Source: Peribacillus simplex
GTDB taxonomy: Bacteria > Bacillota > Bacilli > Bacillales > DSM-1321
Assembly (NCBI RefSeq): GCF_001578185.1
Contig: NZ_CP011008.1
Coordinates: forward strand, 1,206,001-1,270,000
DNA: 64,000 nt
Direction of reading: 5' to 3'
Position numbers and translations under genes: made by a program. How positions within the stretch are numbered: position 1 is the stretch's first letter; every line of letters begins with the position of its first letter. The notes beneath the pieces were generated by a model. It saw only the letters and a program-made list of their open reading frames with translations, ran no database searches and was not told the origin of the DNA. Of this stretch, positions 19,790 through 27,948 are shown one piece after another.

Positions 19790-21820
<2,031 letters not shown>

Positions 21821-21914
21821 TTTAGGGACTTTGTTTGATTGGCTGAACTGAAAAACAGTATTATTTGGTGCTTTTGGACATGATAAAATAAACATTTTAA
21901 AAAGGAGAATGAAA

Positions 21915-23162
21915 ATGAAGAAGCTGATTTTTCATTTTTTCATGTCCATGTTCTTGATCGTTATTGTAAGTGCTTGTGGATCCAGTTCAGATTTGGAAAA
22001 TAAAGTAGTGACAGAAAATAAGAAAAACGAAGAAGCCAGTAATGAAGCGAAGCCGAAAAAATTGATCATTTGGGAGGAAAAAGGTAAAGCCGAGGCCCTA
22101 AAGCCAGTAATTGAGGCATTTGAAAAAGAATATGGAATCAAAGTTGAGCATAAAGAGCTGGAAATAGCTACCGAGATGTATCACCGGCTTCGTCGTGATG
22201 GGCCAATCGGAAACGGAAAAGCGCCGGATGTTGTTACTTTTTCCCATGACAAAGTCGGGCGTATCGTGAAGGAAGGCCTAATTCAGGAAGTGAAGATGAA
22301 TGAAGAAGTAATAAATGCCTTCATTGAATCTTCAATCAGGGGGGAAATGTATCAAGATAAGGTATTTGGATTGCCGAAATCCGTGAACACTACCGTTTTC
22401 ATTTATAATAAAAAATTGATGGCTAAAGCTCCTGAAACGATGGATGACCTATATAAAATGGCGAAGAAATCAAGAAAAGGGAAAGTGTATGGTTACTATG
22501 CCAAATGGAATGATTTCCATGATGCGTATGGAGTGATGGCTGGAATGGGAGGTTATGTATTTAGAGATAAGGATGGAAATCTGGACCCTTCGGACATTGG
22601 TTTGAATAATAAGAGTGCAATAAAAGGGGCTCGGTACATCCAAAAATGGTATAAAGCGGATCTGATTCCAAAAGGCGACGAGGCAGCAATCGGGAAGTTA
22701 TTTGATCAAGGGAATTTGGCTTCTTTCATGAGTGACGGTAACTCATTTTCCAAGAGAAAGGATACAGGAATTGCCCCTTTGCCAAAATTGCCAAATGGTC
22801 AGCCAATGAAAACGTTCATGGAAATCAAAGGCTGGCATGTAACAGCATTCACTAAACATCCTTACTGGTCTACGAAGTTAGTGGAATATTTGACAAACGA
22901 TGATAATGCAGTCCAGCGTTATGAAAAAACAGGGGAAATCCCCCCGAATAAGGCAATCAAACAAAACCCAGCAATCAATGAAGATAAAAGGGCACAAGCC
23001 TTAAGCATACAAATACAATACGCTGAACCTGTGCCGAATATTCCGGAAATGAATAAGGTATGGGGTCCGATGAATTCTGCCATGGATGATATATCCACTG
23101 AAAAAGCAAAACCAAAAAGGGCTTTGGATAAAGCTGTGAAAACGATAAAAAAAGAACGTTAA
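21915..23162 (+). CDS. Maltodextrin ABC transporter substrate-binding lipoprotein (MdxE-like)
   Basis: The 415-residue protein has a lipoprotein signal peptide with lipobox VSAC (Cys21), a Ser/Glu/Asn-rich linker, and a type 1 extracellular solute-binding fold (KLIIWEEKGKAEALKPVIEAFEKEYGIKVE). Later blocks (APDVVTFSHDKVGRI, GLPKSVNTTVFIYNK, GWHVTAF) are characteristic of maltose/maltodextrin binding proteins. It would capture maltodextrins at the outer face of the membrane. The second ATG (21915) is used because the first is only one base from the GGAG ribosome site. No membrane permease or ATPase gene follows, unlike the mdxEFG arrangement. Confidence 0.88.
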   Translation: MKKLIFHFFMSMFLIVIVSACGSSSDLENKVVTENKKNEEASNEAKPKKLIIWEEKGKAEALKPVIEAFEKEYGIKVEHKELEIATEMYHRLRRDGPIGNGKAPDVVTFSHDKVGRIVKEGLIQEVKMNEEVINAFIESSIRGEMYQDKVFGLPKSVNTTVFIYNKKLMAKAPETMDDLYKMAKKSRKGKVYGYYAKWNDFHDAYGVMAGMGGYVFRDKDGNLDPSDIGLNNKSAIKGARYIQKWYKADLIPKGDEAAIGKLFDQGNLASFMSDGNSFSKRKDTGIAPLPKLPNGQPMKTFMEIKGWHVTAFTKHPYWSTKLVEYLTNDDNAVQRYEKTGEIPPNKAIKQNPAINEDKRAQALSIQIQYAEPVPNIPEMNKVWGPMNSAMDDISTEKAKPKRALDKAVKTIKKER

Positions 23163-23211: not shown

Positions 23212-23241
23212 TTGTCCCTTTAGTGTAAAGTTTTTTATAAT
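23212..23241 (+). promoter_or_regulatory. Sigma-A promoter of the amylase-homologue gene
   Basis: TTGTCC and TATAAT with 18-base spacing lie 70 bases upstream of the start codon. This suggests expression separate from the binding-protein gene. Confidence 0.5.
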
Positions 23242-23312
23242 TTGGATTTGACGTTAAGGGGCCAAAAGGCTAATCTTAAAGGCGTAAAGAGATAGCTAGG
23301 AGGAGAGCGGAT

Positions 23313-24848
23313 ATGAGAAAAAGAGTGTTATCACTCGCTTTAATTCCGTTGCTTCTTTTTTACGCCATTCCAGTAGGAGCAGCTGAAAAAGAACAACGAA
23401 CTTGGAAGGATGAAATCGTATATTCATTATTAGTCGACCGATTTTTCGATGGTAATATACAAAATAATGGAGACGCGAATGTCAATGACCCTTCTGCGTT
23501 TAATGGTGGGGATTTTGAAGGTGTCACGAAGAAACTGAATTATTTAAAAGATATGGGTTTTACAGCTATCATCCTTTCACCGATTTTCGCTAATGATGAA
23601 AATGGTTATCATGGTGATTGGGTGACCGATTTTTATAAAACGGATAAACACTATGGGACGATTAAAGAGTTTAAAAAACTCGTGAATGAGGCACATAAAC
23701 GCGATATGAAGGTGATCATTGATTTTCAAGCTAATAATGTGGGTCCTGAATCATCATGGCTGACAGACCCTGAAAAACAAGGTTGGTTCCATGAAGAAAA
23801 AAAGATTTCCAAGGACGGAAATCAGGATGATTTGGAAACAGGATGGGTTGATGGTCTTCCGGATTTGAATCAAGACAATGATGAAACGCGGAAATATTTA
23901 CTTGATGCGGCCAAATGGTGGATTACGGAAACCGATATTGATGGATACCGTTTAAATAAAGTCCAATACGTAGCAAAAGATTTTTGGAAGGAATTTGTGG
24001 ATGCAGTCAAATCTGAAAAATCAAACTTCTATACAATAGGAGATGTACAAGGTGATGCCGATTTGATTTCAAGCTACAAGCAGACGGGTATCGATGCTTT
24101 TATGGCTTATCCGCAAAATGCCGAACTACGGAAAGCATTTGCTGCATCCGATAAAGAATTTAAACCTGTTTTTAATGCATTTGCGAAAAGTGAAGATGAA
24201 TTTGGGAGAAATGCTCCTCAGGCATTGTTCATGGACACTCAGGGAATGCCCCGATTTACCAAGGATGCAGCCGATCATAACGAAAATCCAGGTTCCAGAT
24301 GGAAAATGGCTCTGTCATATCTCTATACGGTGCCAGGAGTGCCAATCGTATTTTATGGATCGGAAATAGCCTTAAATGGCGATAGTGCCCCGGATAATCA
24401 TAAATTGATGAATTTTAAGACAGAACAGGAATTGGTCGAATATATAACAAAGCTTTCCGATCTCAGAGACATGTACCCAGCATTGATAAAAGGGGATTTG
24501 GAGCTTCTATATGAAAAAGGTGGAGCTTCGGTTTTCAAGCGTGTGTATGGTGATGAAACGATTGTCGTCGCTATGAACAATACGACTGAAACTCAAACGA
24601 TAAACCTTACTGAAAAGGAACTTGAAAAGAATAAAGAGTTGAGAGGTATGCTGAATGGGGATCTGGTCCGCAGTAAGGACAACAGCTACTCTATCGTAAT
24701 CGACAGGGAGACGACGGAAGTCTACACACTTTCACCTAAGTCGATTATTAATATTCCTTACCTGTTAGTTATAGGATTGGTTCTTCTTATTTTTGGTATA
24801 TTCATTGCTTTGGTTATTAAGCGTTCAAAACGGAACCAACCAAAATAA
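23313..24848 (+). CDS. Membrane-anchored GH13 amylase homologue with a degenerate active site
   Basis: The 511-residue protein has a secretion signal (about 1-23, cleavage near VGAAEK), a GH13 barrel and a C-terminal membrane helix (about 479-501, IPYLLVIGLVLLIFGIFIAL) followed by a positively charged tail, so the domain is displayed outside and anchored. The fold is clear (IVYSLLVDRFFDG, GDFEGVTKKLNYLKDMGFTA, PGVPIVFYGSE). The catalytic positions, however, are changed: nucleophile Asp to Asn215 (DGYRLNKV), acid/base Glu to Asp244 (IGDVQ), third Asp to Gly311 and its neighbouring His to Gln310 (MDTQGMPRF). The region I histidine is Asn142. Hydrolysis is therefore unlikely. A glycan-binding, presenting or sensing role is inference. 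Good ribosome site AGGAGGAG. Confidence 0.85.
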   Translation: MRKRVLSLALIPLLLFYAIPVGAAEKEQRTWKDEIVYSLLVDRFFDGNIQNNGDANVNDPSAFNGGDFEGVTKKLNYLKDMGFTAIILSPIFANDENGYHGDWVTDFYKTDKHYGTIKEFKKLVNEAHKRDMKVIIDFQANNVGPESSWLTDPEKQGWFHEEKKISKDGNQDDLETGWVDGLPDLNQDNDETRKYLLDAAKWWITETDIDGYRLNKVQYVAKDFWKEFVDAVKSEKSNFYTIGDVQGDADLISSYKQTGIDAFMAYPQNAELRKAFAASDKEFKPVFNAFAKSEDEFGRNAPQALFMDTQGMPRFTKDAADHNENPGSRWKMALSYLYTVPGVPIVFYGSEIALNGDSAPDNHKLMNFKTEQELVEYITKLSDLRDMYPALIKGDLELLYEKGGASVFKRVYGDETIVVAMNNTTETQTINLTEKELEKNKELRGMLNGDLVRSKDNSYSIVIDRETTEVYTLSPKSIINIPYLLVIGLVLLIFGIFIALVIKRSKRNQPK

Positions 24849-24926: not shown

Positions 24927-26576
24927 ATGAATAAGACCTGGTGGAAAGAAGCGGTTTGCTATCAAATTTACCCGCGCAGTTTCATGGATAGTAATGGTGA
25001 TGGCGTCGGAGATATAAAAGGATTGATTTCAAAGCTCGATTATCTGCAGGATTTAGGGATAGATGTTATTTGGATTTGTCCATTTTACAAGTCCCCCAAT
25101 GCTGATAATGGCTATGATATTAGTGATTATCAGGCCGTATCCGATGAGTTCGGTTCAATCGAAGATATCGAACTGTTATTGAAAGATGTTCACGCACGTG
25201 GGATGAAGGTGATACTCGATCTTGTTTTGAACCATACAAGTGATGAGCACCCATGGTTCGTCGAGTCACGTTCGTCCCGCGATAATCCTAAACGGGATTG
25301 GTATATATGGAGGGATGGGCAGGACGGAAGGGAGCCTAATAATTGGGAAAGTATCTTTTCCGGAAGTGCCTGGAAGTTCGATGAAAGGACCAATCAATAC
25401 TATTTACATTTATTTGCCGAAAAACAGCCAGATTTAAACTGGAAAAATACTGATGTACGAAATGCATTGTATGAAATGGTAAATTGGTGGCTCGACAAGG
25501 GAATTGATGGCTTCCGGATTGATGCTATCACTCATATTCATAAGCGTGAGGGCTTGCCGGATATGCCCAATCCTTATTGGCATCAGTATGTACCTGCGTT
25601 TGAAATGCACACCAATCAGGATGGGATTCTGGATTACCTTCAGGAGTTGAAAGAAGAGACTTTCTCTAAGTATGATATCATGACGGTCGGTGAGGCCAAT
25701 GGCGTCAGGATTGAGCAGGCTGAAGATTGGGTTGGGGAATTGAATGGGAAATTCAATATGATATTTCAATTTGAACATCTTGGACTTTGGAATAGGGGAC
25801 AGAATCACGATGTTGATGTTCAGGGGTTAAAACGCACAATGACCAAATGGCAAAAAGTGATGAAAAACAAAGGCTGGAATGCTTTGTTTTTTGAAAACCA
25901 TGACCAGCCGAGAAGTGTCTCGACATGGGGAAATGATCATCAATATTGGTTGGAAAGCGCAAAAATGATTGGGGCTCTATACTTTTTCATGCAAGGGACA
26001 CCTTTTATTTATCAAGGTCAGGAAATAGGTATGACGAATGTCCAATTTGATTCTATTGATGATTATGATGATGTTGGAATGAAAAACTTTTACCGGATTG
26101 AGACCTCCAAAGGCCGTCCACATGATGAAATCATGAACATTATCTGGCATAGCGGCCGTGATAATTCACGAACCCCGATGCAATGGAATGAAAATGAAAA
26201 TGGTGGGTTCACGCACGGAAGACCTTGGATGAGGGTTAATTCCAATTATCGCGCCATTAATGTAGAACAGCAGAAGAATGACCCATCATCCATTTATCAT
26301 TTTTATAAAAAGATGATTGAACTTCGAAAAAAACATCAGGTCCTTGTTTATGGGGAATATGAATTATTATGGGAAGATCACCCTGAACTTTATATTTATA
26401 CAAGAAGTATGAATGAAAATTCAGTGATGGTAGTATGTAACTATAGTATGAATCACCACCAAATCAACCTTTCCCATTGGGGTAAGATGGAACTTTTACT
26501 AGCTAATTATGATGATTGCCCTGAAGGGTCCGTTATAGATTTACGGCCATATGAAACGAGGATTTATCGTTATTGA
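24927..26576 (+). CDS. GH13_31 alpha-glucosidase (MalL-like)
   Basis: Cytoplasmic 549-residue alpha-glucosidase of the oligo-1,6-glucosidase/exo-alpha-1,4-glucosidase group, releasing glucose from the non-reducing end of maltodextrins or isomalto-oligosaccharides. All catalytic residues are intact: Asp199 (GFRIDAITH), Glu256 (VGEANG) and Asp326 (ENHDQPR). Ala at position 200, rather than the Val of oligo-1,6-glucosidases, points to a preference for alpha-1,4 linkages (inference from known family members). The ATG at 24927 has a GGGAGGG ribosome site. It lies 78 bases after the amylase homologue and is probably in the same transcript. Confidence 0.9.
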   Translation: MNKTWWKEAVCYQIYPRSFMDSNGDGVGDIKGLISKLDYLQDLGIDVIWICPFYKSPNADNGYDISDYQAVSDEFGSIEDIELLLKDVHARGMKVILDLVLNHTSDEHPWFVESRSSRDNPKRDWYIWRDGQDGREPNNWESIFSGSAWKFDERTNQYYLHLFAEKQPDLNWKNTDVRNALYEMVNWWLDKGIDGFRIDAITHIHKREGLPDMPNPYWHQYVPAFEMHTNQDGILDYLQELKEETFSKYDIMTVGEANGVRIEQAEDWVGELNGKFNMIFQFEHLGLWNRGQNHDVDVQGLKRTMTKWQKVMKNKGWNALFFENHDQPRSVSTWGNDHQYWLESAKMIGALYFFMQGTPFIYQGQEIGMTNVQFDSIDDYDDVGMKNFYRIETSKGRPHDEIMNIIWHSGRDNSRTPMQWNENENGGFTHGRPWMRVNSNYRAINVEQQKNDPSSIYHFYKKMIELRKKHQVLVYGEYELLWEDHPELYIYTRSMNENSVMVVCNYSMNHHQINLSHWGKMELLLANYDDCPEGSVIDLRPYETRIYRY

Positions 26577-26904: not shown

Positions 26905-27948
26905 ATGGCCATCACGATAAAAGATGTGGCACAGCTGGCGAATGTTGCTCCTTCAACAGTTTCTCGGGTGATTGCAAATAATCCTCGAATAAGTGAAAAA
27001 ACAAAGGTAAGGGTACGTAAGGCGATGAATAAATTAGGGTACCATCCAAATTTCATTGCACGTAGTCTTGCCAATCAATCAACCAGGATCATTGGCTTGG
27101 TCCTGCCAAGTTCGTCAAATGATTATTATCAAAATCCATTTTTTCCAACGATTCTCCAGGGTCTTAGTGAGGGAGCTCAGGAAAACCATTATTCCCTGTT
27201 GCTAGGCACGGGAAAAACCGAAGATGAAATCTACGAAGGAGTCGTAAACATGGTGCAGGGGGGGATGGTGGATGGAATAATCCTGATGTATTCCAGGATG
27301 AACGATCACATTCTGACCTATTTGAGGGCAAGGGATTTTCCTTTTGTCATCATTGGGAAACCCTATGATTTTCTCGATGAGATAACATATGTTGATAACG
27401 ATAATGTCTTGGCAGCCGAACAGGCAACAGATTATCTCATTCAGCTAGGACATGAAAGGATTGGATTCATCGGAGGCGATGTAACCCTTGTGATGACGCA
27501 TGATCGCCTATTAGGATATGAACGGGCTTTGAAGAGGGCTGGGATCGATCGAAGGAGGGAATATACCCTGCATGAAGACTTTTTGCATGAAGGTGGACAA
27601 GCAGCTGCAAAAAGATTGCTTGCCATTGATGAACCGCCAACTGCTTTGGTGGTCAGTGATGATCTTATGGCACTTGGCATCGTGCATTCACTTCGCGAGA
27701 TGGGTGTTCGCACTCCAGAAGAAATGTCCATCGTCAGCTTCAATAACGTTATTTTCTCTGAACTATCATTGCCTGCCCTGACTTCTGTAGATATTAATAT
27801 TTTCGATTTGGGATATCAGGCCGCTAAGGGTATCATTCAAAGGCTGCAAACTGGAGATACTCCTGTTGGGTCCATCATTCCACATCATTTCGTGGAAAGG
27901 CATTCCTGCAGACCAATCAAGCAAGGTGCGATGGCCTTGACTTATTAA
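26905..27948 (+). CDS. LacI-family transcriptional regulator of the maltodextrin locus
   Basis: A 347-residue repressor with an N-terminal LacI helix-turn-helix (ITIKDVAQLANVAPSTVSRVI, residues 3-22), hinge region (LGYHPNFIARSLA) and a periplasmic-binding-like sensor domain (IIGLVLPSS, GHERIGFIGGD, PTALVVSDDLMALGI). Position at the end of the maltodextrin genes suggests that it controls them in response to maltose or maltodextrin, as MalR/MdxR (YvdE) do; that assignment is by context. The start at 26905 follows AGGGGAGAGGGGA. Confidence 0.88.
   Translation: MAITIKDVAQLANVAPSTVSRVIANNPRISEKTKVRVRKAMNKLGYHPNFIARSLANQSTRIIGLVLPSSSNDYYQNPFFPTILQGLSEGAQENHYSLLLGTGKTEDEIYEGVVNMVQGGMVDGIILMYSRMNDHILTYLRARDFPFVIIGKPYDFLDEITYVDNDNVLAAEQATDYLIQLGHERIGFIGGDVTLVMTHDRLLGYERALKRAGIDRRREYTLHEDFLHEGGQAAAKRLLAIDEPPTALVVSDDLMALGIVHSLREMGVRTPEEMSIVSFNNVIFSELSLPALTSVDINIFDLGYQAAKGIIQRLQTGDTPVGSIIPHHFVERHSCRPIKQGAMALTY

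Follow-up and report, generated by a model that had tools for sequence, protein, structure and literature searches.

Repeated loss of the catalytic triad in membrane-tethered GH13_45 amylase homologues of the Bacillales suggests retention for a non-hydrolytic surface role

Homologues of GH13_45 amylases in which the whole catalytic triad is replaced have been noted before (Sarian 2017; PMC5347038). The accessible part of that paper describes an 'irregular' group (nos 28-34) whose entire triad is substituted with no obvious regularity, treats the irregular and BmaN1 proteins as amylases and contains no discussion of operon loss or retention (PMC5347038). More recently, a 2025 paper stated, in its available text, that conserved regions are incomplete in most GH13_45 sequences (PMC12695923). 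The C-terminal stretch of these proteins has been called a starch-binding motif, yet the same paper, in the portion available, predicts a membrane helix there (PMC11448133). BmaN1, whose catalytic positions hold Lys/Asp, Glu and His, is reported to be an active amylase, and the accessible text of the 2024 paper on this protein gives specific activities of 1.54 and 1.69 U/mg and a kcat of about 256 per second. By our own arithmetic, for a 56-kDa protein assayed with 20 mg/mL starch, where the Km is 62 mg/mL, 1.54 U/mg corresponds to about 1.4 per second, and the activities and the kcat as given there are hard to reconcile. Outside the bacteria, the SLC3 heavy chain 4F2hc is described, in the part of the source at hand, as a transporter subunit without the three catalytic residues (PMC8537225). 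For GH13_45, we found no account of operon erosion, of repeated loss with retention or of a retained promoter in the literature within our reach, which excludes most subscription journals. The class of proteins is already known; to judge from the literature searched, the pattern described below seems to be new, as does its reading.

The gene considered here lies in the window, the whole 64-kb stretch of DNA that was analysed, which is part of a 5.5 Mb genome. Named relatives with 93-94% protein identity come from Peribacillus frigoritolerans and P. simplex. The gene and its surroundings comprise the following features:

19790..21553, minus strand: neopullulanase-type GH13 protein, complete triad (read by eye)
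21909..23162, plus strand: MdxE-like solute-binding lipoprotein (SBP_bac_8), with no mdxFG at the locus
23212..23241, plus strand: second promoter-like site, TTGTCC-N18-TATAAT
23248..23276, plus strand: promoter-like element, TTGACG-N17-TAATCT
23313..24848, plus strand: GH13_45 homologue, predicted to be secreted and C-terminally anchored, three carboxylate positions changed; signal sequence about 1-23 (by eye), barrel about 30-393, C-domain about 394-475, predicted membrane helix 481-507, then a KRSKR tail
24927..26576, plus strand: alpha-glucosidase-type GH13 protein, complete triad (read by eye)
26905..27948, plus strand: LacI-family regulator (Pfam run from 26911)

The 511-residue product starts with ATG, just 5' of which stands AGGAGGAG. 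It matches the Pfam alpha-amylase catalytic domain PF00128 with 167.6 bits and the C-terminal domain PF22026 with 106.2 bits. Its nearest solved structures are 5a2b (533 bits), 5a2a (525) and 4e2o (515), followed at 187 bits by a member of another family; 5a2b and 5a2a are Anoxybacillus GH13_45 enzymes and 4e2o is Geobacillus GTA. An AlphaFold2 model built from 39 sequences (mean pLDDT 85.8, pTM 0.83) comprises a full barrel, the C-domain and the terminal helix 481-507. Foldseek ranks 5a2c, 4e2o and 5a2a as its top three matches, with a TM-score of 0.97 (target length), 50% identity and rmsd values of 1.4-1.6 A (1.4 A on superposition with 5a2c), in line with the original prediction of an intact GH13 fold. 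The C-terminal helix and surface anchoring that it proposed likewise hold as predictions, the signal peptide being called by a hydropathy rule and by eye. Two hallmarks of GH13_45 are present, namely the tryptophan pair (W202-W203) and the LPDlx motif in CSR-V (L182 P183 D184 L185 N186). The five C-terminal aromatics are not: only Y483, F494 and F497 follow residue 476, in a stretch that is the predicted helix. This finding bears on how the C-terminal stretch of the subfamily is to be read, as the starch-binding motif or as the membrane helix that are both put forward in the accessible portion of the same paper (PMC11448133). The window protein thus shares its fold, domain order, signal sequence and C-terminal hydrophobic region with BaqA, ASKA/TASKA and GTA, which have a complete triad, but differs from them in the three carboxylate positions, in most of the contacts at subsites -1 and -2 and in the absence of mdxFG from its locus. 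By description, it fits the irregular GH13_45 group, as characterized in the available text on that group, in having the whole triad substituted.

Residue-by-residue alignment with 5a2b, 5a2a and 4e2o bore out each of the replacements originally noted. N215 takes the position of the nucleophile Asp, D244 that of the acid/base Glu and G311 that of the third Asp, so that the Asp-Glu-Asp triad of active GH13 alpha-amylases is missing, and the positions of the conserved histidines hold N142 and Q310. The maltose contacts at subsites -1 and -2 of TASKA, as given in the accessible part of the source, are Y, W, Y, R, D, E, H, D and R (PMC4791539). Transferred to the window protein via structure-sequence alignment, they correspond to D102, W103, P145, R213, N215, D244, Q310, G311 and H363, meaning that W103 and R213 are kept (two of nine); among the seven that differ, P145 is matched by proline in many intact enzymes as well. 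H100 is also retained. The carboxylates D102 and D244 are found at pocket positions, and the latter is replaced by glycine in one close relative. We infer from these changes that the protein is catalytically inactive.

None of the 20 sequences in the clade of the window protein has D, E and D at the three triad places, and the changes are therefore no sequencing errors. Positions 215 (N/T), 244 (D/G), 310 (Q/E) and 311 (G/A/E/N/S) all vary within this clade, and D102, Q139, N142, K216, Q218 and H363 do not. Taken as a whole, the former conserved sequence regions vary less than the other parts of the barrel (15/70 versus 111/294 columns, p 0.012), whereas 15 positions lining the cleft are no less variable than the barrel (6/15 vary, p 1.0), indicating that the region is still constrained, but not for the old chemistry.

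The gene is maintained and not decaying, as had been proposed on the basis of its open frame. Nei-Gojobori counts, obtained with an in-house script, give a median dN/dS of 0.119 in the window clade (range 0.071-0.196; 186 of 190 pairs, 20 sequences), far from 1, which, together with the open frames, disfavours plain decay. Among 13 genomes (75 pairs), the value is 0.118 for the amylase homologue, 0.09 for the neopullulanase, 0.055 for the alpha-glucosidase, 0.057 for LacI and 0.049 for DegV; the MdxE-like binding protein, at 0.213, has the highest value of the nine genes compared. Elsewhere, other groups with altered triads give 0.076-0.233 and intact groups 0.040-0.218, once pairs outside dS 0.05-1.6 are removed, which cost one intact group each of its three pairs and family f40 two out of three.

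The loss of the triad is not confined to the window's lineage. At E <= 1e-90, 207 of 397 sampled genomes of the order contain a match, and the genus alone spans every stage from a complete to an absent triad (query and 108 loci aligned, some genomes being represented twice). A representative set of loci with less than 92% identity and at least 4.5 kb of upstream sequence comprised 152 entries, reduced to 151 after one broken copy (L134) was dropped. Of these, 83 genes encode D/E/D and 68 are altered, with one position changed in 16, two in 20 and three in 32 cases. A gene tree computed after removal of the active-site columns requires at least 11 changes and has 13 all-altered clades. Because long altered branches may be wrongly joined in that tree, a second one was derived from neighbouring genes (96 of 150 rows), which gives 16 changes and 24 all-altered clades. 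These figures are to be taken as ranges, not counts, with a long-branch warning attached to the gene tree; the triad is lost repeatedly, in 11-24 events depending on the method. The protein itself persists throughout whole families, with one match in each of the 43 genomes of the window's family (43/43, including a broken copy in G015 and one with an internal stop in G001), in 24/24 genomes of f40 and in 60/80 sampled genomes from 36/46 genera of f14, the remaining 20/80 having no match. Among 46 f14 sequences searched for the triad, none contained it. Additional signs of decay are an internal stop in the copy of G063 and a split second copy in G436.

Triad loss goes along with erosion of the surrounding operon. 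In intact relatives, the genes usually follow one another as neopullulanase, binding protein, MdxF, MdxG, amylase, (alpha-glucosidase/GH31/GH65) and LacI. The MdxF and MdxG clusters were labelled by Pfam as BPD_transp_1 (one member of each tested), and the first and second downstream clusters as GH31 and GH65, respectively (again one member each); a GH65 label for the first of them was rejected, since Pfam returns GH31. Both permease genes are found within 8 kb of 73/83 intact but only 8/68 altered genes. No recognised maltodextrin-type gene is present within 8 kb or the shorter flank in 34/68 altered versus 2/83 intact loci, and in 26/56 altered versus 1/42 intact loci when both flanks are required to span at least 6.5 kb, in counts that rest on blastp against clusters from these loci and would let very divergent genes escape. 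A recognised solute-binding protein gene is missing near 53/68 altered loci. Fisher's test on the table of triad versus permease state gives p 1.7e-22 but ignores kinship. Paired tests on the gene tree (eight pairs, 5.2 in the same and 0.0 in the opposite direction, median p 0.0625) and on the neighbour-gene tree (ten pairs, 5.8 versus 0.6, median p 0.07) are no more than suggestive of an association of triad loss with the loss of the permease. The correspondence has exceptions on both sides, as one or both permease genes are missing beside 10/83 intact genes (five of which encode all six residues HRDEHD), and f24 genomes have lost the triad and kept the permease. An MdxF homologue occurs in 11/43 genomes of the window's family (E <= 1e-60) and in 4/24 f40 genomes, all 24 of which have the amylase homologue. 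At two loci (L120 in G042 and L030 in G034), an altered gene remains at the old site and a different contig of the genome carries a close MdxF homologue (77%), a picture that would fit relocation of the transporter or its reacquisition without the amylase.

At the window locus, the genes for the binding protein, the neopullulanase, the alpha-glucosidase and the LacI regulator still adjoin the amylase homologue, and the two neighbouring GH13 enzymes do have the D/E/D motifs ascribed to them at the outset, as judged by eye. The locus has no mdxFG, and a search for a close MdxF across the genome returned none, the best match showing 31% identity over 287 residues. The MdxE-like protein could work with a different permease or function as a sensor. 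MdxFG cannot be a required partner of the amylase homologues at loci that lack them. The gene of BmaN1 itself probably stands without mdxFG as well, because the three loci with its catalytic pattern (L155, L156 and L158) are all devoid of mdxFG; the BmaN1 helix string, as it appears in the accessible text, is found in L156 and a one-residue variant of it in L158. The neighbours of L155 encode an amine-oxidase-type flavoprotein, a phytoene/squalene synthase, an ammonium transporter (assigned by Pfam) and a LacI protein.

A further trace of the ancestral operon is a promoter-like element upstream of the gene. The pattern TTGAC-N17..19-TAAYCT, represented in the window by the site at 23248..23276, precedes 30/67 permease-less genes (first-order shuffles predict 0.03) and 38/80 permease-bearing genes (five rows excluded from both counts: three with one permease gene, L134 and L172). 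In permease-bearing loci, it overlaps the last codons and the stop codon of mdxG, whose coding sequence alone could conserve it there. The mdxG coding tail is readable just 5' of the element in all 38 permease-bearing cases but in only 6/30 permease-less ones, and it is not readable before the element of the window. As the element is kept in permease-less loci, where mdxG coding cannot conserve it, selection on expression is the simplest reason for its persistence. Its promoter function is a prediction, since a consensus scan, which lists the site at 23212..23241, does not list the one at 23248..23276, whose second hexamer fits the consensus poorly; the pattern recurs once more in the 64-kb window, on the opposite strand. 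Of 11 sequences of the window clade, 10 agree in the first hexamer of the 23212..23241 site and eight in the second, the other three having TATAAA. In the same 11 sequences, the leader (23269..23312), comprising about 44 bases before the start codon, is nearly invariant. A described riboswitch was considered for this leader and rejected, as Rfam returned nothing above chance for it and no match at gathering scores for the whole window.

To see where constraint has gone, substitution rates were expressed as group medians relative to neighbouring proteins as a clock (with no usable f40 pairs and a single pair in one intact group). The 15 former cleft positions evolve at 0-0.33 in intact versus 1.55-3.11 in altered groups, the remaining barrel at 1.05-1.36 versus 1.50-3.27 and the C-domain at 1.32-2.15 (4.31 in one group) versus 1.70-2.63. 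Catalytic loss thus relaxed the barrel, freed the cleft and left the C-domain about as before. A tighter constraint on the C-domain of altered proteins was considered and dismissed, because the clock shows a relaxed barrel and an about unchanged C-domain rate. The predicted membrane helix is present in 68/68 altered and 82/82 intact rows (two rows dropped) and the signal sequence in 66/68 and 79/82, respectively, the five misses arising where our script placed the start codon past the signal.

The former pocket has followed different courses in different lineages. In f7, the other f1 sequences and f24, its positions vary more than the barrel (ratios of 1.41, 1.25 and 1.29), so that there is no common new site. 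In f14, 35 of 46 sequences, picked by the presence of K213 or H215, share E137, Y142, H215, A216, D218, Q219 and Q348, each conserved in at least 80%, and keep H100, Y102 and W103. These seven residues are among 31 conserved positions that differ from the intact consensus, with the pocket only mildly enriched, and the ratio of cleft to barrel variability is 1.0 over all 46 sequences and 0.82 in the chosen 35. A putative rebuilt pocket in f14 is thus a lead rather than a result. Many f14 homologues (L255-L294) carry a DG[FY]K-L-HA-D-Q-like signature at the former nucleophile region, possibly a new functional site.

On balance, we consider it probable that the window protein is a pseudoenzyme kept for a non-hydrolytic surface role that is independent of maltodextrin import. 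On this reading, it descends from a membrane-tethered amylase encoded in an mdxE-mdxF-mdxG-amylase operon for maltodextrin. The window's lineage no longer has the permease genes or the active-site carboxylates, but the fold, the predicted export and anchor and an upstream promoter-like element have been kept, and the protein is under purifying selection. The same has happened repeatedly across the Bacillales, in many cases with disappearance of the remaining operon. A second, non-hydrolytic role is the simplest explanation because the protein survives the loss first of the catalytic residues and then of the operon, remains anchored and is found across entire families. This role would be exerted at the outer face of the membrane and would already have existed in the ancestral enzyme. 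The anchored C-domain may hold the barrel beside a partner in the membrane or cell wall, with the barrel offering a surface for docking and its former sugar pocket either drifting or being remodelled, in the style of SLC3 heavy chains such as 4F2hc. Like the window protein, as predicted, 4F2hc and rBAT have a GH13-fold ectodomain on a single membrane helix; these vertebrate chains differ in having an N-terminal anchor and an SLC7 partner, going by the accessible part of the literature on them, whereas the predicted anchor of the window protein (481-507) is C-terminal. It is tempting to generalize that, in tethered GH13_45 amylases of the Bacillales, an old non-catalytic surface function has been the real reason for retention, such that the enzyme dies once import is lost, leaving a pseudoenzyme that is core to whole families and whose pocket was rebuilt in at least one large family (E137, Y142, H215, D218, Q219 and Q348), as a bacterial parallel to SLC3. 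We regard this broader proposal as tentative, and would not yet call it probable.

Several observations run counter to a pseudoenzyme and give some weight to other explanations. The original prediction envisaged a surface receptor that binds maltodextrin or starch and presents it to the binding protein or signals its presence; such a receptor would leave alpha-glucans uncut and concentrate them for the MdxE-like protein or sense them. The residue loss, maintenance and surface anchoring (as a prediction) that it proposed are borne out; as a general explanation, the receptor that feeds the binding protein is weakened, and we consider it unlikely. The four operon genes that still adjoin the window gene, the retention of H100, W103 and R213 and the lower variability of the former conserved regions (p 0.012) speak for it. 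They are opposed by the difference from TASKA, on the accessible description of its contacts, at seven of nine positions (one being the proline common among intact enzymes), by a cleft as variable as the barrel (p 1.0) with changes at 215, 244, 310 and 311, by the lack of mdxFG at the locus and of a close MdxF in the genome and by the persistence of the protein in the 34 altered loci without a recognised maltodextrin gene nearby. For the window's own lineage, a role in starch sensing is conceivable, given that the binding protein gene still adjoins the amylase homologue there. The pocket may instead have been rebuilt, lineage by lineage, for another substrate, yielding a new enzyme or a lectin. 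The distinct residue set of the 35 f14 sequences and the six residues fixed in the window clade would fit such a conversion, which nonetheless strikes us as quite unlikely, considering that those 35 were selected by K213 or H215, that the pocket provides only seven of the 31 changed f14 positions and the cleft is as variable as the barrel over all 46 sequences, and that it varies beyond the barrel in f7, other f1 and f24.

The reported activity of BmaN1 and the carboxylates D102 and D244 at pocket positions speak for residual amylase activity from an aberrant centre. BmaN1, however, retains the Glu and, directly after the nucleophile position, an Asp, where the window protein has D244 and K216, and its third residue, His, is G311 here; a rescue by the neighbouring Asp was accordingly rejected for the window protein. 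In view of these differences, of the D244-to-glycine change in a close relative and of the mismatch between the U/mg values and the kcat in the accessible text on BmaN1, a weakly active amylase appears very unlikely. Slow decay of a useless gene, finally, would produce broken copies such as those in G015, G001, G063 and G436 and could account for the 20 f14 genomes without a match, and the faster evolution of the barrel in altered groups (1.50-3.27 versus 1.05-1.36 times the clock) is what partial relaxation would give. With dN/dS values of about 0.07-0.23 in the altered groups measured, open frames, a maintained anchor and single copies over whole families, we find this explanation hardly credible. 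Retention for a non-hydrolytic surface role also has to accommodate the eight altered genes that still lie beside both permease genes, the ten intact ones without one or both of them and the operon remnant at the window locus itself.

The Bacillales thus offer a natural experiment in which one enzyme has lost its catalytic residues many times separately and the protein has been retained. Intact and altered versions can be compared within a single genus, making the function of a pseudoenzyme directly testable. There is also a consequence for annotation, in that many database proteins named as GH13_45 'alpha-amylases' may be no amylases at all. The organism itself retains another amylase, probably an intracellular one, since a second alpha-amylase gene in its genome (L007 865-2370, at about 5298000 of C1) encodes a protein with a complete triad, as read by eye, and no evident signal peptide.
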